Source: Levilactobacillus parabrevis ATCC 53295 (GTDB lineage: Bacteria > Bacillota > Bacilli > Lactobacillales > Lactobacillaceae). Taken from it: a stretch of 61,621 nucleotides of DNA. The position numbers and the translations under genes are program-made. Under the pieces are notes generated by a model that made no database searches, was not told the origin of the DNA, and saw only the letters and a list, made by a program, of their open reading frames with translations. Within the stretch, counting starts at the first letter, position 1. Each line of letters opens with the position of its first letter. Below, in pieces: positions 5,486 through 46,874 of this stretch. The stretch is taken from assembly GCF_001434055.1 (NCBI RefSeq), contig NZ_AZCZ01000015.1:1-61621 (forward strand), in the 5' to 3' direction.

Positions 5486-5624
5486 GGAATCGCTCCATTT
5501 CAACTGATTTAGTCTTATCCTTTATAATAGATATTGTTTTGACCCTGGTCAATCATTCTTTGCAAAAAAACGGCAAGGTTTCTTTTATCCCTCATTAATA
5601 TATGTTAGAATGCTTAAGTTATGA

Positions 5625-5724
5625 GTCAATTCCCGATAGGATTCACGCATTCAGTGAAGCTGCCTTGTAACCGACTGGCGCGAGATTATCGGTCAACTCG
5701 TCGTCAACACTATCTAGGGGGAAT
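5625..5724 (+). promoter_or_regulatory. SMK-box (SAM-III) riboswitch of metK
   Basis: The leader contains the SMK core in order: TTCCCGATAGGAT (anti-Shine-Dalgarno, 5630-5642), a short hairpin arm GAAGCTGCCTTGTAACCGA (5656-5674) and AGGGGGAAT (5716-5724), which is the metK ribosome binding site. In this family SAM binding pairs TTCCC with the GGGGGAA site and blocks translation. Here the two halves are separated by about 41 nt that could form its own hairpin; minimal versions have only a few bases there. Matches are from memory of the family consensus. Confidence 0.88.
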
Positions 5725-5729
5725 ATCCA

Positions 5730-6917
5730 TTGCAAGAAAGACATTTATTTACGTCGGAATCCGTTTCAGAAGGCCATCCAGATAAAATTGCTGATCAGAT
5801 CAGTGATGCCATCTTAGATGCTCTACTGGCTCAGGATCCGGATTCACGGGTTGCCTGCGAGACGTCCGTTACGACTGGCCTGGTGCTGGTCTTCGGTGAA
5901 ATCTCTACCAAGGCATACGTGGACATCCAAAAGGTCGTTCGTCAAACCATTAAGGAAATTGGGTACACGGACGGTCAATACGGTTTTGACGGTGACAACT
6001 GTGCCGTCCTCGTCGCTATCGACGAACAATCACCCGACATTGCGCAAGGGGTCGATGACTCTTATGAAACGCGTGAAGGTGATGAAGATCCACTGGACAA
6101 GATCGGTGCCGGTGACCAAGGGTTAATGTTTGGTTACGCCATCGACGAAACGCCAGAACTGATGCCCCTCCCAATCACGCTGAGCCACGCTTTGATGCGT
6201 CGGATCGCCAGCCTGCGGAAAATGGGCACCATTGATTACTTACGGCCAGATGCGAAGGCAGAAGTCACCGTTGAATATGACGATGAGGGTAAGCCATTAC
6301 GGGTCGACACCGTTGTCTTGAGTACGCAACACGATCCAGACGTTACGTTGGACCGAATTCGTCAAGACGTGATCGATCAAGTGGTTAAGGAAGTTATTCC
6401 CGCCCACTTGTTAGACGACAAGACGAAGTACTTCATCAACCCAACTGGTCGTTTCGTTATCGGGGGTCCTCAAGGGGATGCCGGTCTGACCGGTCGGAAG
6501 ATCATCGTCGACACGTATGGTGGGGCTGCTCACCATGGTGGTGGGGCCTTCTCCGGGAAGGACGCCACGAAGGTGGACCGTTCAGCAAGTTATGCTGCGC
6601 GGTACATTGCCAAGAACATTGTGGCTGCCAAGTTGGCAACGGAATGTGAAGTCCAGATTGCCTATGCCATTGGTGTGGCGGAACCCGTTTCCGTTTCCAT
6701 CAACACGTTCGGCACCGGGGTCGTTACGGAAAGCAAATTAGCTGCTGCCGTTCGTCAACTCTTTGACTTACGTCCAGCCGGCATCATCAAGATGCTCGAC
6801 TTAAAGCGGCCAATCTACAAGCAAACTGCCGCATACGGCCACTTTGGTCGGACCGACATCGATTTGCCTTGGGAACACACGGACAAGGTCGATGCTTTAA
6901 AGGCTGCTTGCAAATAA
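5730..6917 (+). CDS. metK: S-adenosylmethionine synthase MetK
   Basis: 395 aa, full family length. Makes SAM from methionine and ATP in the cytoplasm. Typical motifs are present: [14 protein letters not shown] at the N-terminus (ATP/methionine site), [12 protein letters not shown] in the centre, [14 protein letters not shown] (P-loop-like) and [17 protein letters not shown]. The TTG start at 5730 lies 8 nt after the GGGGG ribosome site that the SMK riboswitch masks, so SAM probably represses its own synthesis at translation. Monocistronic with a strong terminator. Confidence 0.98.
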
Positions 6918-35152: not shown

Positions 35153-35373
35153 ATAGCCGAAGGTGGTCAGAGATGGCGCCAGCCGTGAAAACGGTGTTAG
35201 GCCGGGCGATTGTTTCTTCCCGGTCTTACACCGCGGGACGCGTTTGGAAACTCGCATGAACTTGGCGAGGTTTCAAACCGAGCCGGAAGCCAGGTTTTCA
35301 GGCTGCAGGCGGTCCCCACAGCAGGTGTAATCCCTGGCAGCCGCAAGCGGTAATTTTTAACCAGTGCAGTTCG
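35153..35373 (+). ncRNA. structured non-coding region, diverged relative of the dispersed element
   Basis: No frame fits. It begins ATAGCCGAAGG and has CAGCCGTG (35180-35187) as in the dispersed elements. It then runs through the same plan: hairpin CGGTGTTAG-GCCGGG...CCCGGT-CTTACACCG (35192-35233), hairpin GTTTGGAAAC.CGC...GCG.GGTTTCAAAC (35242-35277) holding the shared GAAACTCG, and hairpin AGCC...GGCT (35288-35304). Then comes GGCGG-CCCC. Stem sequences differ from the other copies but pairing is kept. A terminator follows, so it may be an independent RNA or a leader ending before argR. It does not match tmRNA, RNase P, 6S or cobalamin patterns I know. Confidence 0.5.
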
Positions 35374-38945: not shown

Positions 38946-39179
38946 CCCGACCATGTTTTGGAACGGGTTCAGAGGAGATTGGAATTTATTGTTGGTTGTG
39001 CCTATCGTTTTTGGTTGAAGTTTGTGCGGGTGAAACCTCGTGAAGCTCACAAAGGCTTTAAGTCCAACACCATAGATAATGCTGGGTGGCAATTGCGTTC
39101 GATCAGAGATTAATGAGCTGACTGTGTGAAACTAAATTCGCATGGTGATTGTGCAAGTAATGATTGGAGACCACAATAT
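38946..39179. other. 234-bp unassigned stretch before element copy A
   Basis: No ribosome site with a credible frame, no terminator and no RNA gene seen. Together with copy A and the yhaO leader it makes a 550-bp non-coding gap. Confidence 0.5.
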
Positions 39180-39362
39180 AAGCCGTGAGGGGGGCGCAAA
39201 TAGACTCAGCCGTGGGAATTCTCTTAGCAGCTGGTTTTGCTGCTTAGAGAATTGGTGCTTTGAAACTCGGTCCACAGAGGTTCAAAGCAAGTTCAGAGAC
39301 CGCTCTTTGGCTCTGGACGTCCGCCCCAGCGTTCCAGTCTATTTGCGCCCCCCGGTAAGGCG
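39180..39362 (+). repeat. dispersed structured element, copy A
   Basis: 183 bp. Closing stem: GGGGGGCGCAAATAGACT (39189-39206) pairs perfectly over 18 bp with AGTCTATTTGCGCCCCCC (39336-39353). Outside it, GCC-GTGA faces GGTAA-GGC. Inside: CAGCCGTG, then hairpin AATTCTCT / AGAGAATT (39217-39253) with tip CAGC / GCTG, hairpin GCTTTGAA.CTC / GAG.TTCAAAGC (39257-39288), hairpin CAGAG / CTCTG (39294-39315), then GTCCGCCC. No coding frame. It sits 73 bp before yhaO. Confidence 0.85.
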
Positions 39363-39435
39363 CGGCAAAAATCAATGGATGTTTCTTCCAATCTAGACTT
39401 AACCCAAAGGAAATAAGGAAAGGCAGGCCCGAACC

Positions 39436-40650
39436 ATGAAATTCATTCATGCGGCTGATTTACATTTAGATAGCCCGTTTTTGGGGCTGCAACATTTACC
39501 CAACGCCCTGTTGGCGCAAGTGCGGGCATCAACTTTTACTGCGGCAACTAAGGTTTTTGACAAGGCGATTGCCGAACACGTGGACTTTGTGCTACTTGCT
39601 GGAGATCTCTTTGATCGGGCGGAACAGAGCGTGGCCGCGCAGGCCTATTTATTCGAGCAGTTTGGCCGACTCAATGATGCGGGAATTCCAGCGTTGATCA
39701 GCTTTGGGAATCACGATTATCTCGCCGATCAGCATCAGACGGTGGCGTATCCGGCCAATGTGACCGTGTTTGGTCCGGAAGTCGGCACACAAATGCTGAC
39801 GTTAGCTTCTGGAGAGACCGTGGCGATCAGTGGTTTCAGTTATCCGCAACGCTGGGTGCCGGAGGATCAAGTCATTCAATTTCCCACGCACGCGGCGACA
39901 GACTGGCACATTGGCATGCTCCACGGCGCTGTCAGTACGGGGAGTGGCGACCACTACGCGCCGTTTACGGTGGCCGAGTTATTGGCAAAACACTACGATT
40001 ACTGGGCGCTGGGCCATATTCATCATCGACAGGCATTGAATGACCAGCCACCAATCCTGTACGCGGGAAATACGCAGGGGCGGGCGATCACCGAGACGGG
40101 CACCAAGGGCGCTTATTTGGTGACCAGCCGGACTGGCCAACTGGTCCCAGAATTCTTTGAAACGTCGACAATCAACTGGGAAATGGCTAACTTGTCTGGC
40201 GGCGATTCCCTCCAGGCCTTGAGTCAGCAGCTAGCGGACTGGTTAACGGCGCATCCCGCGGACCGCACGACACTCACGGCCGTCACGGTCCAATTGACGC
40301 AGCCACTGACCGGTGAGGATGCCGCGCAACTTCAGAGTGGGGATTGGTTAGCGCTGTGGCAACGAACGCAGCAGCGGGTGATGCGAGCAGCTCAGCGCTA
40401 CGTGGTTACGGTTAATGTGGCGACCCAGATGGCTAGTGTTGCGGCGCCCCAACTGGACCAGCATTATTGGGAACAGGGAGCAGCTGGCGTCTTTACGCCG
40501 GAAAACTTACAACAGCTATTTGGCAAGCTCAATCAGGATCCCGCATTGGCAGAGTGGTTCACGCAGCCACAGACAACGAAGGCTGTGGAAGCTCTGGCGC
40601 GGCAGCAATTAGCAGAATTAATGGGAGAGGAGGGGAACCATGAGGCTTAA
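39436..40650 (+). CDS. yhaO: YhaO-type DNA-processing phosphoesterase (SbcD/Mre11-like)
   Basis: 404 aa. The calcineurin-like phosphoesterase motifs are in order: DLHLDSPF (residues 7-14), LLAGDLFDRAE, FGNHDYL, MLHGA and WALGHIHHRQ. Relatives are Mn-dependent nucleases paired with an ATPase. The next gene (yhaN) overlaps by 11 nt, and the same pair exists in Bacillus. Binding of DNA ends is inferred from family. Confidence 0.92.
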   Translation: MKFIHAADLHLDSPFLGLQHLPNALLAQVRASTFTAATKVFDKAIAEHVDFVLLAGDLFDRAEQSVAAQAYLFEQFGRLNDAGIPALISFGNHDYLADQHQTVAYPANVTVFGPEVGTQMLTLASGETVAISGFSYPQRWVPEDQVIQFPTHAATDWHIGMLHGAVSTGSGDHYAPFTVAELLAKHYDYWALGHIHHRQALNDQPPILYAGNTQGRAITETGTKGAYLVTSRTGQLVPEFFETSTINWEMANLSGGDSLQALSQQLADWLTAHPADRTTLTAVTVQLTQPLTGEDAAQLQSGDWLALWQRTQQRVMRAAQRYVVTVNVATQMASVAAPQLDQHYWEQGAAGVFTPENLQQLFGKLNQDPALAEWFTQPQTTKAVEALARQQLAELMGEEGNHEA

Positions 40651-43267
40651 CCAGTTGACGATTTATGGTTTTGGTAAATTTCATGATCGGACTTTTCCGC
40701 TGAATGCAGGCTTAAACGTTCTGTTGGGGCCAAATGAGGCGGGAAAGTCCACGCTGACGCAGTTTATCAGCGCCATCCTCTTTGGTTTTCCCACGAAGAA
40801 GCATCCGGAACTCCGCTATGAACCCCTTGATGGCAGTCGGTTTGGCGGTGAGATTGCTTTCACTCAGGACGGAACGGATTACCTGGTCAGCCGGGTCGAT
40901 GGTCCCCGTGGGGGTAAGGTGACATTGCGCAACGTGACGCTTGATTTGGCCCTGCCAGCTACCACACTCACTCACTTGTTGGCGCCGGTCGATGCTCAGC
41001 TCTTTAGCAACGTTTACGCAATCAATGAGCCCCGTTTGGGAACCGTCTTTGCGGCGTCTAAACAGGCACTGATCGATCGGTTACGTCACGTGGGGGCTGT
41101 CGGCAGTGACTTCTGGTTGGCCCAGGCGCATCAACTGGATGATGCGGCGGATGAGTTGTATAAGCCGCAGGGCCGCAAGCCCCGCCTGAATCAGCAACTT
41201 CAGGAGTATCAAGATTTGACGGAAAAATTAAATCGGGCGAATGCCAGTTATGCGACCTATTGGGAGCTTTTACAAACGCAACAGCAACAGCGTTCGCAGC
41301 AGAAAGACATACAACGACAACTTGCGGTGCAACGGCAGGTAGCTAACCAATACGATCAGCAGTTGTCACTGTGGTCGACATATCAGCAGTGGCTAGACTT
41401 GGATGATACGGCTGTGCCAGTCGTCAGTGGTTTTCAGCAGAACGATGCCACGACTCTGGAACGATTGACCAATCAGGTAAATGCCACGGCGGCGACTCTT
41501 CAAGGAGACCAGGAACAACTGGCGAGCTTGCAAGACCAGGCCCAATTACCGCCACTCTTTCAACAATACTTATTAGTCGCGGGCCAGGTCGACCCCCTGA
41601 TTGCGCAGTTTCCCGATGTAACGATTGCTGCGCGGGAGCAGGAACGTTTGCAGACCGATCAGGCAGAGCTTCAGCGGCAGGCTGGTGATATTGAACGCCA
41701 GTACGCAAAGCACGGTCAGATGCCACGGGCGTTTTCACTGGCAACCACGCAGCGGGTTCAGGAGTTAACCGCGAGTCTATCGTTGGCAAACCAGAAGCGC
41801 CGGCGGCTCCAGCAACAACTGAATCAACTTAACGAGCAGTACCGTCAGCAACAGCCAACCCGTCAGCAACGTCAGAATCCGCTGGCCGATAAGCAGGTCG
41901 GTTGGTTGGCAGCGGGATTGATCGTGCTGATTGGCGCAATGTTTCTTCCCGGCGCGCTATTTAAGCTGGGCGGTGCGTTACTTGGTGTGGCCGTGGGCTA
42001 CTATGGTGTCTTCATCGTGGATAGCAGTACGCCAGCCAGCCGGCAAATGCAGACGTTAGAGGAGGATATCCGTGACGTTCAGGCGCAGCTACGAGAGGGT
42101 GGTAAAGCTATTGATCACCTGACTCAGCAGCTCGATGATATTGGGGATGCTCACGGTCTAGGCGACTTGGCACCTGCACAGTGGAACGCGGCTCAGGACG
42201 CCATCGTGATGTGGGATCGCCTCACACAACGTTTGGAGAATGTAGCCGAGCAGTTGGCAACGGTGGTAGCAACGGTCACGGACTTTCAGGCAGCCGTTCG
42301 GCGGGTACTGCCGGCGGCGACAGCGGCCGATTTTACGAAATTGGCGCGTGAGTTACAGGATTTACAGAGCACACAACAACGCTTGCGAACCCAAGAGAGC
42401 GATGTCACGGCGGTAGCTAGTCGGTTAAAACGCGACCAGAATGCGCTAGACCAAGCTCAACGAGCCGTCACGACCTTTTTACAAACGCGTAATTTACGAA
42501 GCACGGATGCCTTTTATCAGCAGTATCAGCAGGTGCGTGAACAGGGGAATCGGACGCAACAACGGGCAGCCTTGGCCGAGCAACTGGGTGCGCGTAACTT
42601 AGCGGCACTTCAACAGGTTGCTAGCCACGCGGACCTCAGTCAACGTGCGCAGTCGGCGACGACACAGGTCGCAGATTTACAGCAACAGTTAGATGCCGTA
42701 ACGGAACAGCTCGCGACGATTGCTGGTCAGCTAGACCATTTGACCGCCAGCGGCACGCAGGCTGGCTTACGACAAAAGTTAGCGAACCTGGCGGCACAGA
42801 TGCAGGCGACCGCGCAGCAGTGGCTGGTCGATCGCCTGGTGAGTCAGTGGATCGCGGCAACTCTAGCAGCGGCATCCGGCGACCGTTTGCCCCAAATCGT
42901 CAAAACGGCTAGCCAATTCTATGGTAAATTAACGGAAAACCGGTATACTGAAATTGAACTCACACCAACCACGCTCCGGGTCAAACGTGCGGATGGTGAT
43001 TGGCGTACGGTGGGACAATTGTCGCGGGGAACGGCCGAGCAGCTCGACTTCGCCGTGAAATTGGCCTTCGCTGTGGTCATGGCGCAACAGGTGGCTATGC
43101 CGGTAGTCATCGACGACGGCTTCGTTAATTTTGATGCCGATCGGCGACGGGCAGCTTACCAGTTACTGGCAACCATCAGTGACACGATTCAAGTGATTCT
43201 ATTGACCGCGGATGACGGGGTCGCAGATAAATTACCCACAGAAAATTTAATTCGATTAACTGATTAG
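40640..43267 (+). CDS. yhaN: YhaN-type AAA ATPase (SbcC/Rad50-like)
   Basis: 875 aa. P-loop GPNEAGKST near residue 32, then a long Gln-rich coiled coil (residues about 175-420). A hydrophobic hairpin of two helices follows (WLAAGLIVLIGAMFLPG and GGALLGVAVGYYGVF), then more coiled coil. The C-terminal half-site has LSRGTAEQLDFAVKLAFA and VVIDDGFVNFD. Expected to power the YhaO nuclease. The membrane hairpin is unusual for SMC-like ATPases but known in this family. ATG overlaps the end of yhaO. Confidence 0.9.
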   Translation: MRLNQLTIYGFGKFHDRTFPLNAGLNVLLGPNEAGKSTLTQFISAILFGFPTKKHPELRYEPLDGSRFGGEIAFTQDGTDYLVSRVDGPRGGKVTLRNVTLDLALPATTLTHLLAPVDAQLFSNVYAINEPRLGTVFAASKQALIDRLRHVGAVGSDFWLAQAHQLDDAADELYKPQGRKPRLNQQLQEYQDLTEKLNRANASYATYWELLQTQQQQRSQQKDIQRQLAVQRQVANQYDQQLSLWSTYQQWLDLDDTAVPVVSGFQQNDATTLERLTNQVNATAATLQGDQEQLASLQDQAQLPPLFQQYLLVAGQVDPLIAQFPDVTIAAREQERLQTDQAELQRQAGDIERQYAKHGQMPRAFSLATTQRVQELTASLSLANQKRRRLQQQLNQLNEQYRQQQPTRQQRQNPLADKQVGWLAAGLIVLIGAMFLPGALFKLGGALLGVAVGYYGVFIVDSSTPASRQMQTLEEDIRDVQAQLREGGKAIDHLTQQLDDIGDAHGLGDLAPAQWNAAQDAIVMWDRLTQRLENVAEQLATVVATVTDFQAAVRRVLPAATAADFTKLARELQDLQSTQQRLRTQESDVTAVASRLKRDQNALDQAQRAVTTFLQTRNLRSTDAFYQQYQQVREQGNRTQQRAALAEQLGARNLAALQQVASHADLSQRAQSATTQVADLQQQLDAVTEQLATIAGQLDHLTASGTQAGLRQKLANLAAQMQATAQQWLVDRLVSQWIAATLAAASGDRLPQIVKTASQFYGKLTENRYTEIELTPTTLRVKRADGDWRTVGQLSRGTAEQLDFAVKLAFAVVMAQQVAMPVVIDDGFVNFDADRRRAAYQLLATISDTIQVILLTADDGVADKLPTENLIRLTD

Positions 43268-43278
43268 GAGGGTCTAAC

Positions 43279-44253
43279 ATGGCGGCAACAAAACAATTAA
43301 TGGACTATGCAGTGGACGAAGCGGTCGACTTATTTGTGTTATTAAAGTCAGCGGACGTCCGGATGGCTAAGAATGGGAAGCAATACATCGCTTTGATTTT
43401 TGAGGACCGATCTGGGGAGATCTCAGGTAAGTACTGGGATGCTTCCGAAGAGGATGTCAAAAACTACGTGTCGGGGCAGGTCGTGCACTTGCAAGGTAAG
43501 CGGGAGAATTACCAGACCCATCCGCAAATTAAGATTTTTCACCTGCGGTTAGCCAAGCCAGGCGAGCCAACCGATCCAGAAATGTTTATTGAACAGGCGC
43601 CAATGGACCGGGCAGCCATGGAAGACTATATTAACCAAACGATTTTTGAAATTACTCAGCCAACTTGGAATCGGTTGGTGCGCAAGCTTCTGGGGGAATA
43701 TCAAGATCAATTCTTCACGTTCCCAGCGGCCAAAAGCAATCATCACGCATTCAAGGGGGGACTAGCCTTCCACACGATTTCAATTTTGAAGTTAGCCCAT
43801 TCGGTAGTCAAACAGTATCCAGATTTAAACGCGCCGTTGCTCTTTGCTGGTGCAATCCTGCATGATCTGGGCAAGACGATTGAGTTGTCTGGGCCGCAGT
43901 CAACGACCTACACCTTGGCCGGTAACCTGATTGGCCACATTGTCTTGATCGATGGTGAATTGGTCCGGGCTTGTGATCCACTCAAATTGGACCCACAGGC
44001 TGAGGATGTCTTGCTGTTGCGGCACATGATTTTGAGTCACCATGGCCTACTAGAATACGGCTCCCCCGTGCGCCCAGCTCTGCGTGAAGCCGATGTGCTC
44101 CACCAACTGGACGAATTGGACGCCTCCATCATGATGTTGGATACGGTCGTGGACCACACGGAACCAGGAGAATTCTCGGAACGAGTCTTCGCTTTAGACG
44201 GCCGTCGCTTCTACCGGCCAACGACGGATGCACCGGAAAAGAAGCAGGATTAG
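43279..44253 (+). CDS. yhaM: 3'-5' exoribonuclease YhaM
   Basis: 324 aa. N-terminal OB fold (residues about 15-100, with FVLLKSADVRMAKNGKQYIALIFEDRSGEI) and a C-terminal HD domain with AGAILHDLGKTIEL and MILSHHGLLEYGSP. Digests RNA from the 3' end in the cytosol. Third gene of the yhaONM operon, 11 bp after yhaN. AGGAGG precedes ATG. The last residues (about 312 onward) are a charged tail. Confidence 0.95.
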   Translation: MAATKQLMDYAVDEAVDLFVLLKSADVRMAKNGKQYIALIFEDRSGEISGKYWDASEEDVKNYVSGQVVHLQGKRENYQTHPQIKIFHLRLAKPGEPTDPEMFIEQAPMDRAAMEDYINQTIFEITQPTWNRLVRKLLGEYQDQFFTFPAAKSNHHAFKGGLAFHTISILKLAHSVVKQYPDLNAPLLFAGAILHDLGKTIELSGPQSTTYTLAGNLIGHIVLIDGELVRACDPLKLDPQAEDVLLLRHMILSHHGLLEYGSPVRPALREADVLHQLDELDASIMMLDTVVDHTEPGEFSERVFALDGRRFYRPTTDAPEKKQD

Positions 44254-44315
44254 GACGTAAGATTTAAGTCAGACATGGCTCAAAATTTTTCGATAACATC
44301 TGAATAGAATAGAAA

Positions 44316-44348
44316 ATCACGCCAGTTAATTTTGGGCGTGGTTTTTAT
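44316..44348 (+). terminator. yhaONM operon terminator
   Basis: CACGCC / GGCGTG stem with an 11-nt loop, then GTTTTTATTT. Confidence 0.8.
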
Positions 44349-44462
44349 TTCAAGTTATGGTGTCTTTGAGTGGTTATAGTAATTGATTCAATCTGGGGGA
44401 TGGGCGGAGAGGAAGTACTACTTAGACGATGAGGACAAGAACAGCGATTTTTTAGCAAGTGT

Positions 44463-44642
44463 CAGCCTTGAGGGCGGTGAAAATAAACTCAGCCGTGGGA
44501 ATTCTCTTAGTGACTTGTCGCTTAGAGAATTGGTGACTTTGAAACTCGCTTCTTATAGGTTCAAAGCAAGTTCCGAGACCGCTCTTTGGCTTGAGACGTC
44601 CGCCCACCGCGTTCCAGTTTATTTTCACTGCCCGGCAAGGCG
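44463..44642 (+). repeat. dispersed structured element, copy B
   Basis: 180 bp. Closing stem GGGCGGTGAAAATAAACT (44472-44489) pairs with AGTTTATTTTCACTGCCC (44616-44633): 18 of 18 with one G-T. Inside: CAGCCGTG, hairpin AATTCTCT / AGAGAATT with tip GTGAC / GTCGC, hairpin CTTTGAA / TTCAAAG holding GAAACTCG, and a third, weaker arm around ACCGCTCTTTGG. Outside: GCC-TTGA faces GGCAA-GGC. It lies between convergent yhaM and prsA. Confidence 0.85.
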
Positions 44643-44655
44643 AAGGGCAAAGACG

Positions 44656-44704
44656 ACAAAAAAATCCCCGGTAAGCCGACGGAAATCGGTGTACCGGGGA
44701 TTCG
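44656..44704 (-). terminator. prsA terminator
   Basis: Stem AATCCCCGGTA / TACCGGGGATT; T-run on the minus strand (AAAAAAA at 44658-44664). It abuts copy B. Confidence 0.92.
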
Positions 44705-44717
44705 TTTAATTCAGAAA

Positions 44718-45638
44718 TTACTTAGTTGCGGATGAAGTCGTCTTTGAAGACTTGCTTGATGATAAGTAATCAGACAAGATGTTCTTCAAATCGTTATCCT
44801 TGATGGAAACGTCACCCTTCTTCAAGACCTTGGCAACCACGTTGTGCAGAACAGTAGAATCGTTCATGTCGTTGTCAATGATTTGCTTCTTAAGTTCAGC
44901 CTTGTGTTGGTTCATAGTACCCTTACCAGGGTTCTTCAACATTAAGATGACGTGGTAACCGTATTGCGTCTTAACAGGCGTAGCGGTGTATTCACCAGTC
45001 TTCAGCTTGAAGGCAGCCTTCTTGAAGGTTGAGTCCAGAGAAGTATCAGTGCTATCGAAGGCACTCAACTTACCACCCTTGTTCTTGGTAGCTGTATCAG
45101 TAGAGTACTTCTTAGCTAACTTCGTGAATTCAGACGTCATGTCGCTCTTCTTGGTGTCCTTCAAGTCGTTGATAACAGTGTTAGCAGTAGACTTCTTGGA
45201 TACTAAGATGTGGGCAACAGTAACTTCTGGTTCGTAGCTCTTGAATTGCTTCTTGTATTGCGCATCAGTAACCGTTACGTTGTCCTTAACGGCTTCCTTC
45301 AACAGTAAGTTAGAACGGATTTCAGTCTTTAAGCTGGATTCCGTCATCCCACTTTGTGCAAGAACGCTCTTGAATGATGACCCGTATTGGGCTTTGTAGG
45401 TATTGAATTGCTTAGTAACAGCGGTCTTCTTGACCTTGCTACCGTATTGCTTTTCCAAGACCTTGTTCAGGATCATTTGTTGCAGAACTTGCTTACCAGA
45501 TGAAGTTCCCTTCAAACTGCTGTAGTAAGCACTTTCGGTGATCTTGCCACCGCTAGTGGTTGCAACGGTTTGGTTCCCACAACCAGCAAGCGTTACAGTC
45601 AGTAACAAGCCAGCAAGGGCGATAAACCATTTCTTCAT
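44718..45638 (-). CDS. prsA: foldase lipoprotein PrsA
   Basis: 306 aa from ATG 45638 ([13 protein letters not shown]); a start six codons earlier is possible. Lipobox LAGC with lipidated Cys near residue 20. The SurA-like N-terminal helices (residues about 30-135) surround a parvulin domain (about 140-235) with [29 protein letters not shown] and [11 protein letters not shown]. Anchored outside the membrane, it folds secreted proteins such as PBPs. Ser/Lys-rich end. Position next to hit and ecs as in Bacillus. Confidence 0.95.
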
Positions 45639-45750
45639 ATTACTCAACACATCCATTCATCAAAATTGGTGTAAACACCATACTTGGATATCATAACACA
45701 AATATAGCGAAACCTAAAAAGGTACGCGAAGCTTTACAAAAAGTTCAAAT

Positions 45751-46071
45751 TTAGAGCTTATCCCAGCGTGAGACGGTATCCTGAATTTCTTCCACGCGGG
45801 GGCCAATTTTAAACGCAAACTTTTCAACGTCGCTTTGGATGTCTTCAATGGCAGGGGTGGCAGCAGTGACAGCGGCGTCAAGGGCGGCCACCTTTGTTGT
45901 CACGTTATCTTTAGCCGTTTTGACGTCATCAACCTTGTTAACAGTGTCTTTGATTTGGTCACCGAGTTGCTGGGCCCAGACGCGTGGGTCTTGCTTGGTC
46001 AACGTAAAGTAGGCTGCCAAACCAACGCCGGTTGCCAGGGTAACGCCCGTTAGAAATTTACCAAATCCCAT
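45751..46071 (-). CDS. YhaH/YtxH-like single-helix membrane protein
   Basis: 106 aa. An N-terminal glycine-rich helix LTGVTLATGVGLAAYF, then a long charged amphipathic coil with heptads (VDDVKTAKDNVTTKVAALDAAVTA). Matches the YtxH/YhaH plan. Starts 2 bp after the hit stop with GGAGG upstream, so it is in one operon with hit. Role unknown; a stress role is reported for some relatives. Confidence 0.7.
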   Translation of the reverse strand: MGFGKFLTGVTLATGVGLAAYFTLTKQDPRVWAQQLGDQIKDTVNKVDDVKTAKDNVTTKVAALDAAVTAATPAIEDIQSDVEKFAFKIGPRVEEIQDTVSRWDKL

Positions 46072-46073
46072 GA

Positions 46074-46532
46074 TTAATCCTCCACGTGTGCTTTGATCTT
46101 AGCTTGAATAGCGGCGTAGTCGTCTGGTGTGTAGTTGCCGGAGTTATCCTTAAAGATCATTTGGAAATCATCGTCGTCGGTGTAGCGGGGAACCAGGTGG
46201 AAGTGGGAATGGAACACGGATTGATAGGCCACCTTACCATTGTTATTGACGATGTTCATCCCAGTAATGGCGGGATCTGACGCCTGAACGGCACGGGCGA
46301 TTCGCGGAATCCGGGAGAAGACGGCTGCTGCGAGATCACTGTCGTAGGCGAAGATGTCCTTGACGTGGGTCTTCGGAATGACCAGTGTGTGGCCGGGAGT
46401 CCCTTGTGAAATGTCTAGGAAAGCCTTCACGATATTATCTTCGTAAACGGTGTAGCTCGGGATGTCTCCCTTTAAGATTTTGCAAAAAATACAGTCGTCA
46501 TCATAGTGCGGTTCGAGTGTCATTTTATCCAT
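46074..46532 (-). CDS. hit: HIT-family nucleotide hydrolase/transferase
   Basis: 152 aa. The histidine triad HSHFHLVP (H-x-H-x-H) is near residue 110, and CIFCKILKGDIPSY with a zinc-type Cys pair is near the start. Hydrolyses nucleoside phosphoramidates or dinucleotide-like bonds. Next to the divergent ecsA promoter, as in Bacillus. Start ATG with AAGGAG upstream. Confidence 0.94.
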   Translation of the reverse strand: MDKMTLEPHYDDDCIFCKILKGDIPSYTVYEDNIVKAFLDISQGTPGHTLVIPKTHVKDIFAYDSDLAAAVFSRIPRIARAVQASDPAITGMNIVNNNGKVAYQSVFHSHFHLVPRYTDDDDFQMIFKDNSGNYTPDDYAAIQAKIKAHVED

Positions 46533-46624
46533 GAAATCTCCTTCTTTCGGGTTGATTTCGTCTATTATACACCATCGTTAGGGGCGGATTCATCTCCACC
46601 GTTCGTTCACAGTCTACGCTATGG

Positions 46625-46630
46625 TATAAT
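46625..46630 (+). promoter_or_regulatory. extended -10 of the ecsAB operon
   Basis: ATGG-TATAAT with the TG extension, in the divergent hit/ecs region. Transcription from it would run through copy C in the antisense direction and give a leader of about 400 nt. A minus-strand TATAAT for hit lies near 46562-46570. Confidence 0.55.
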
Positions 46631-46687
46631 AGCTGAGTTATCACCGACCACTAGGGTATCCGTTGGACTTGGAATTGTGTGGGCTGT

Positions 46688-46874
46688 CGCCTTACCGGGT
46701 GGTGCAAATAAACCGGGACGCTGTGGGCGGACGCCTGGAGCCAAAGGGCGGTCTCCAGCCTTGCTTTTAACCTCTGAAAGGCGAGTTTCAAAAGCACCAA
46801 TTCTCTAAGCGGCATGACCCATGCCACTAAGAGAATTCCCACGGCTGAGTTTATTTGCGCCACCCTCACGGCTT
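46688..46874 (-). repeat. dispersed structured element, copy C (minus strand)
   Basis: 187 bp, read on the minus strand. Closing stem GGGTGGCGCAAATAAACT pairs with GGTTTATTTGCACCACCC (17 of 18, one C/A mismatch). Inside: CAGCCGTG, hairpin AATTCTCT / AGAGAATT with a new tip TGGCAT / ATGCCG, hairpin GCTTTTGAA.CTC / GAG.TTAAAAGC, and hairpin CTGGAG / CTCCAG. Outside: GCC-GTGA faces GGTAA-GGC. It lies in the divergent region between hit and ecsA. Confidence 0.85.

Follow-up and report, generated by a model that had tools for sequence, protein, structure and literature searches.

Intergenic repeats of Levilactobacillus parabrevis are probably surviving arms of a protein-less, two-armed mobile element with covarying folds

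Results

Homologous Folded Segments in the Window

The window that we analyzed, a 61,621-nt stretch of the Levilactobacillus parabrevis ATCC 53295 genome (the own genome, G000, hereafter), carries a tRNA cluster at 70-642 and a SAM-III (SMK box) riboswitch at 5614-5732 on the plus strand. Further along it contains the following features.

35154..35350, plus strand: Y arm, a homologous second arm type (model R2, 202 bits; model R1, 30.8 bits)
38965-38984 / 39386-39405, no strand assigned: possible outer inverted repeat around copy A, 80% complementary
39181..39362, plus strand: X arm, copy A (R1, 203.8 bits; fold z -9.9), with a YlbF/YmcA-family gene on one side and a calcineurin-like phosphoesterase gene on the other
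44464..44642, plus strand: X arm, copy B (R1, 182.1 bits; fold z -5.0), flanked by genes for an HD-domain protein and a PPIC-type rotamase
46688..46873, minus strand: X arm, copy C (R1, 190.8 bits; fold z -7.3), flanked by genes for a HIT-domain protein and an ABC transporter

The original prediction described three dispersed segments sharing sequence blocks, and these are present: R1, a covariance model made from 41 own-genome X copies, places copies A, B, and C at E values of 2.6e-44 to 1.9e-39, and the folding energy of each copy beats 200/200 shuffles. All three copies are real; a fourth homologous copy had been missed, and the genome has 42 X copies. This fourth copy, the Y arm, appears under R1 as a weaker place in the window (35155-35350, plus strand, E 1.8e-5) and has its own model, R2, which in turn scores the three window X copies at 49-58 bits. 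Neither model recognizes a divergent Y arm near copies A, B, and C, or a second arm beside copy A. The possible outer inverted repeat around copy A, which has no significant match to the 14-bp unit ends described below, could at an uncertain guess mark the limits of an old insertion (38965..39405).

Covariation and Strand Bias of the Arms

The X arm folds into a closing stem P1 of 18 consensus pairs, an inner helix, and two long hairpins, with a third hairpin sitting around GAGACCG...GGCTC, and its unpaired blocks are conserved as well. The changes at positions 4, 9, and 15 of the closing stem are as first described, and the claim that the stem arms stay complementary between window copies holds largely, the exceptions being a G.U at position 5 in copy B and, in copy C, a C/A mismatch at 7 and a G.U at 18. 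In the alignment of 41 X copies (A2, without L032), 97.9% of 2456 cells are paired and 42 of 60 pairs show double changes. The covariation score was 0.411 versus 0.155 in shuffled alignments (0/500 shuffles as high) and 0.059-0.077 in slid-structure controls, and double-changed cells numbered 324 versus 78.5 ± 10.2 in shuffles (0/500). All five covariation measures exceed 500/500 shuffles and all six slid structures, significance here being defined by these shuffled and slid controls. In the alignment of 28 Y copies (A3, without L357 and L361, neighboring partial matches that make up 2 of the 30 Y loci), 31 of 60 pairs show double changes (0/500 shuffles).

To read the strand on which the arms fold, we compared G.U with A.C cells using structures predicted with G.U forbidden. 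On the sense strand, the X arms gave a G.U:A.C ratio of 86:23 (p 1e-9) and the Y arms one of 44:20 (p 0.004), while Y with the structure from the opposite strand gave 47:28 (p 0.04). A wider X set of 73 sequences including orthologues (78 minus 5 left out), with an ordinary structure, gave 252:37, with 99 of the 252 G.U cells contributed by two pairs whose commonest type is U.G or G.U. In the fresh units of Levilactobacillus angrenensis described below, the ratio for the Y arm was 29:8 in its own sense, opposite to that of X, whereas G.U and A.C were equal for the X arm (12:11), a result that counts against the bias, although these arms vary too little. Since a cause in double-stranded DNA should give equal numbers, an excess of G.U on one strand points to RNA or to a single DNA strand. 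The arms probably act as RNA.

A Family Spread over Several Genera of Lactobacillaceae

When copy A served as a BLAST query against the own 2.6-Mb Levilactobacillus genome, 44 matches passed E ≤ 10, of which 40 also passed E ≤ 2.6e-23, and after a local re-search the X family in this genome amounts to 42 distinct sequences. With a Y query, for which 40 of 114 first-look candidates were scored, at least 41 matches reached E ≤ 0.001. In a first sample of neighbors, 16 of 40 genomes match, i.e., the own genome, 15 of 23 same-genus genomes, and 0 of 16 others; R1, run on two of the eight same-genus genomes that gave no BLAST match (G005 and G015), finds weaker copies in both. Many further copies in the own genome covary, and the covariance-model search of Lactobacillaceae that had been proposed extended the family beyond the genus. 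With stricter filters and at most 16 places scored per genome, R1 matches 42 of 161 genomes from 11 of 40 genera, with 7 positive genomes in the own genus and 35 spread over 10 other genera.

A pattern scan returned at least 112 stretches, with 14 among the matches listed in unrelated bacteria and the remaining ones listed in Levilactobacillus or an "uncultured Lactobacillus" metagenome-assembled genome. The 14 matches outside lactobacilli look like chance (best R1 E value there, 0.12) and were rejected. The family had no match in plasmid and phage sequences (E 0.01 and 0.1, respectively). The original prediction knew of no named family with this pattern, and at gathering score no Rfam family falls on any arm in the window and 27 loci of relatives, where the matches are tRNA, SAM-III, and one T-box, and a below-threshold look at 8.1 kb gave four matches, none on an arm. 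A full-text literature search, read by title and start of abstract, found no description of the family.

The two arm types often occur as divergent pairs. The 28 own-genome Y loci include 11 X-Y pairs less than 350 nt apart, all 11 arranged 5'-to-5', and 12 of 37 own-genome X loci have a divergent Y arm within ~360 nt. When 40 R1 places were fetched from the 161-genome search (one from the own genus), 23 proved two-armed and 22 of these divergent. By batch, 9/9 and 13/14 two-hit loci are divergent, one of the 13 being weak (E 0.006), and the remaining locus of the second batch has tandem arms, which counts against the explanation favored below.

A Two-Armed Unit in L. angrenensis

At slot A, the site of copy A, alignments read across relatives show a ~364-nt insertion in L. 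angrenensis M1530-1 (G040) that is missing from Levilactobacillus brevis CD0817 (G003) and Levilactobacillus suantsaiihabitans (G047), and a ~380-nt insertion in G002 that is missing from G041, G018, and G016 and has GATTCAGA flanks on both sides. Models R1 and R2 find an arm there in G040 and G002 and none in G003, G047, G041, G018, and G016. When the G040 insertion was used as a query against its own genome, there were at least 69 matches (40 of 267 first-look candidates scored). We fetched 30 G040 loci, found the left end in 25, and aligned the 19 of these with a length of 625-670 nt, which gave a full unit with a 642-nt consensus and a mean identity of 84%. The unit has no transposase gene; in the consensus, frames that start with ATG reach 61 codons at most and open stretches 91. 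The two arms lie back to back, Y on the minus strand in the left half and X on the plus strand in the right half, and visual inspection of the spacer in fresh units revealed no promoter.

The unit ends are 14-bp terminal inverted repeats, CTRAAGGTTGAAAG, and 20 of 25 loci match this sequence with at most four mismatches at both ends. G040 has 83 occurrences of the end motif, while a reversed-pattern control gave 0. When the 20 units with at most four mismatches at both ends were inspected for target duplications, we found exact 8-bp duplications in 5 and exact 7-8-bp duplications, a one-base offset being allowed, in 11, compared to 0/380 for mismatched flank combinations. In 9 of the 20 fresh units there is no 7-8-bp duplication, which counts against. 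Seven shorter units of 277-496 nt have the same ends and, in a comparison without control, 7 or 8 of 8 matching flank bases; they look like internal deletions of the full unit. Taken together, these findings are strong evidence for a mobile, protein-less, two-armed unit in L. angrenensis.

Twenty G040 regions with unpaired or oddly spaced ends proved to be internal deletions and unrelated genes and were rejected as autonomous copies, the exception being L322, with a truncated transposase at an end. In another G040 region (L311, 226-1871), a pair of ends spaced 1646 nt apart, whose flanks agree at 7 of 8 bases, encloses diverged unit pieces and a small frame that by eye resembles the helix-turn-helix type.

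An IS4-Type Candidate Mobilizer

At L322, the end motif adjoins the C-terminal part of a DDE transposase, which pointed to an insertion sequence (IS). At E ≤ 1e-10, this piece has relatives in 10 of 35 genomes from the genus. In G018 (L328), a 489-codon open frame with a transposase lies between ends that both read CTAAAGGTTGAAAG, with TTAATCAG on both sides, and its protein matches NF049925, IS4 family (E 7.6e-141), and Pfam DDE_5 and DDE_Tnp_1. The own genome retains a C-terminal piece of the IS with the same end at a contig edge (L329). An IS4-family element with identical ends is thus the likely mobilizer of the unit. Beyond the 14 bp, unit and IS show no likeness by eye, and movement in trans is therefore inferred. 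The IS has no match in G001, G003, G020, and G023, although copies occur there, which counts against this assignment. Truncated IS4-type copies also lie near an X-like arm in G011 (L330) and in Levilactobacillus mulengensis (G043, L331).

Occupied Slots, Missing Ends, and Possible Exchange of Interiors

Both models find no arm at slot A in G017, G014, G010, G023, G041, G018, G016, G003, and G047, and none at slot C in G017, G014, G010, and G023. In Levilactobacillus fuyuanensis 244-4 (G001), slot A holds a Y arm in the same orientation as the own-genome X arm, slot C likewise a Y arm in the same orientation, and slot B a Y arm with a surviving copy of the 3' end of copy B beside it. All three slots thus have X in the own genome and Y in G001, while slot B in G023 holds a divergent pair. 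Slots A and C would fit an insertion in the ancestor of G000 and G001, the alternative being loss elsewhere.

The window copies show no terminal inverted repeats with target duplication of the kind that defines a miniature inverted-repeat transposable element (MITE), and around the 42 own-genome copies the best matches to the 14-bp ends are no better than in shuffled flanks. With these ends no longer recognizable, the link from window to unit rests on arm homology and slot comparison, and by homology the case is strong that the window copies belong to the same family as the L. angrenensis unit. They would then be decayed arms and not intact MITEs, decay accounting for the missing ends. A search of 20 R1 loci from 16 other genomes for duplications next to inverted ends, whatever the sequence of those ends, gave one match, L381, versus 0/45 in a shuffled control, which counts against. 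The IS-like ends of L381 were dropped, as they recur in 0 of 23 other G171/G194 loci. Several L. brevis loci (L175, L194) were rejected as presence/absence sites because relatives by eye carry partial deletions.

We compared 38 of the 42 own-genome entries with L. fuyuanensis. Twenty are retained orthologues (at least 86.5% identity and best matches of each other), although L022, L023+, and L023- among them may include partial conversion; two are intermediate (L011, with 87.5% in one comparison and 84.7% in the other, and L038, with 84.0%); nine have a 70-79% identical element in the same slot and orientation, with flanks mostly 80-94% identical; and in seven the match is partial or missing. 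In the retained pairs, 131 of 2670 paired sites (4.9%) had changed versus 111 of 976 unpaired sites (11.4%). Double compensations numbered 20 and changes to other types of mismatch 7, while one-sided changes were 47 from Watson-Crick to G.U and 23 from Watson-Crick to A.C, the latter 23 counting against selection for pairing. Fewer changes at paired sites together with compensations in resident copies suggest that the folding is kept, though not strictly.

At several shared slots with conserved flanks the two sister species differ in interior or arm type (L026, L012, L007, L013, L018, and L014 vs. L103, L109, L119, L122, L128, and L129; slots A-C vs. L069). At L026, the outer stem and flanks are conserved and the interior stems differ yet still pair, and at L014 a shared 5' end is followed by a different arm type. 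We read these sites as candidates for the exchange of interiors between copies at fixed sites.

Some loci are unusual in layout. The outer 3' arm of L028 falls within the end of the neighboring coding frame. At L009 (1440-1740), an X copy seemingly sits inside the closing stem of another element with long complementary outer arms. By eye, repeated Y-type pieces vary in number across four related species at the HIT-ABC slot (L090-L093).

Discussion

In our view, a non-autonomous transposon of the MITE type, with two structured arms that are kept for their folding, probably gave rise to the repeats, which would be its surviving X arms. The mobile nature is well supported for the L. angrenensis unit, and for the decayed window copies we infer it. 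An intact unit would be ~640 bp long with no long frame, 14-bp inverted ends, and 7-8-bp target duplications, and an IS4-family transposase acting in trans would move it, as identical ends and an equal duplication length suggest. Its body would consist of two homologous, multibranched modules of ~185-196 nt that face each other with their 5' ends, and each module would fold in its own strand, the one pointing outward. Once inserted, the unit would lose its ends by decay, while selection would continue to preserve the fold of the arms, most likely at the level of RNA transcribed from the unit or from a neighboring promoter.

What the fold does is a separate matter. A self-contained cis fold, with insertion tolerated in transcribed intergenic DNA without disturbing the neighbors, is the leading candidate, though a little short of probable. 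More tentatively, this could be a family-wide lactobacillar element whose sole cargo is a divergent pair of functional RNAs, serving the element (e.g., its transposase or insertion tolerance) or adopted by the host, kept by selection and swapped between fixed sites after the ends are lost.

Other readings fare less well. The old copies with conserved unpaired blocks and covarying stems, the orthologues kept between sister species in 20 of 38 compared entries, and the presence in 11 of 40 sampled genera would all suit a host-owned class of small or protein-binding RNAs acting in trans, amplified by a transposon and then retained like tRNA genes. We find this unlikely, because several close relatives have no arm at slots A and C, the copy number varies (to the point that 8 of 23 same-genus genomes have no BLAST match, with weaker R1 copies in G005 and G015), and the spacer of fresh units has no promoter by eye.

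The covariation might also be mutational, with template switching at DNA hairpins copying one arm into the other without selection on RNA. The 5' and 3' flanks of the 42 copies are more complementary to their own partner than to mismatched ones (mean -19.6 vs. -14.0 kcal/mol; 0/10000 permutations), partly through a weak shared motif near the ends and partly in a locus-specific manner that template switching would explain, and the outer arm of L028 matches the inverted end of the adjacent coding frame. As an account of the arms themselves, this is slightly less likely again than a host RNA class. Correction in duplex DNA should leave G.T and A.C equal, whereas we observed 86:23 (X), 44:20 (Y), and 47:23 (orthologues), and conservation extends to unpaired blocks.

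It is improbable as well that the arms are cis-regulatory leaders or terminators for adjacent genes. In 37 of 42 copies the 3'-side frame is nearer to the arm than the 5'-side one, and L036 has a likely promoter by eye upstream of the unit, but the 3'-side frame runs with the arm in 25 of 42 copies and against it in 17, the second arm and spacer on the 5' side account for much of the asymmetry, and no common family links the genes next to the window copies. Recognition of the second arm also weakened the idea of a 3' end tied to gene starts.

A single-stranded-DNA element of the Y1/IS200-IS605 or REP-like kind, recognized by its hairpin, is very improbable: the strand-specific fold is also compatible with a single DNA strand and 23 of 35 genomes from the genus have Y1 transposases, but Y1 genes have no match in G011 and G002, which both have copies, and the two arms fold on opposite strands. 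Moreover, Y1 elements are not known to make inverted ends with 7-8-bp duplications, and the duplications largely refute this reading. A group II intron or retroelement was rejected, as RVT_1 has no match in G000, G001, G023, G017, and G019, all of which have copies.

The two-armed transposon reading bears on what had been predicted from the window. The choice offered there, between an RNA class in many copies and a non-autonomous mobile repeat with a structure, may not be a choice, since both halves appear to apply: the copies covary, and relatives have the ends and duplications. Extra copies whose stem arms do not covary and whose ends carry transposase-type inverted repeats with target duplications had been named as a refutation. 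Such ends with duplications are present in the L. angrenensis unit; the arms of the family nevertheless covary, and the two signs are therefore not mutually exclusive here. The divergent arms, the Y arm, the IS4-type partner, the 11 genera, and the interior change at fixed sites go beyond that prediction.

These findings add a structured family without an Rfam entry to the genomes of food bacteria such as L. brevis. Small transposons are usually seen as folded DNA junk, and here homologous RNA-like modules covary strand-wise and outlive the ends, which raises the question of whether the body of a MITE can be a functional RNA, kept for the element or for the host. They also call for caution in RNA searches, because a mobile repeat is compatible with strong covariation.

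Among known systems, the RUP and BOX elements of Streptococcus pneumoniae are multi-copy, intergenic, folded sequences with terminal inverted repeats and target duplications, typically <200 bp (BOX, 67-637 bp) and nearly absent from most other streptococci; some BOX elements are transcribed, and RUP has been hypothesized to move in trans by IS630-Spn1 (PMC3049150). In the passages concerned, RUP and BOX resemble the lactobacillar element in being multi-copy, intergenic, and folded, with inverted ends, duplications, and a proposed trans mobilizer, and those passages mention neither two divergent homologous multibranched modules nor strand-specific covariation, so that by description the element is set apart. 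Lacto-int, Lacto-rpoB, and Lacto-usp, which we take to be Rfam structured RNAs of Lactobacillales, are likewise structured RNAs of lactobacilli, and none reaches the gathering score on the arms. Mobile cassettes of IS231 are known among IS4-family insertion sequences; the likely partner shares with these the IS4 transposase and identical ends, while the unit itself has no gene. MITEs in general (e.g., MITEAba12) are, like the unit, protein-less and present in many copies, with inverted ends shared with an IS, a duplication, and internally deleted forms. What distinguishes the unit from other MITEs is its body, a covarying pair of structured arms that outlasts the decayed ends.
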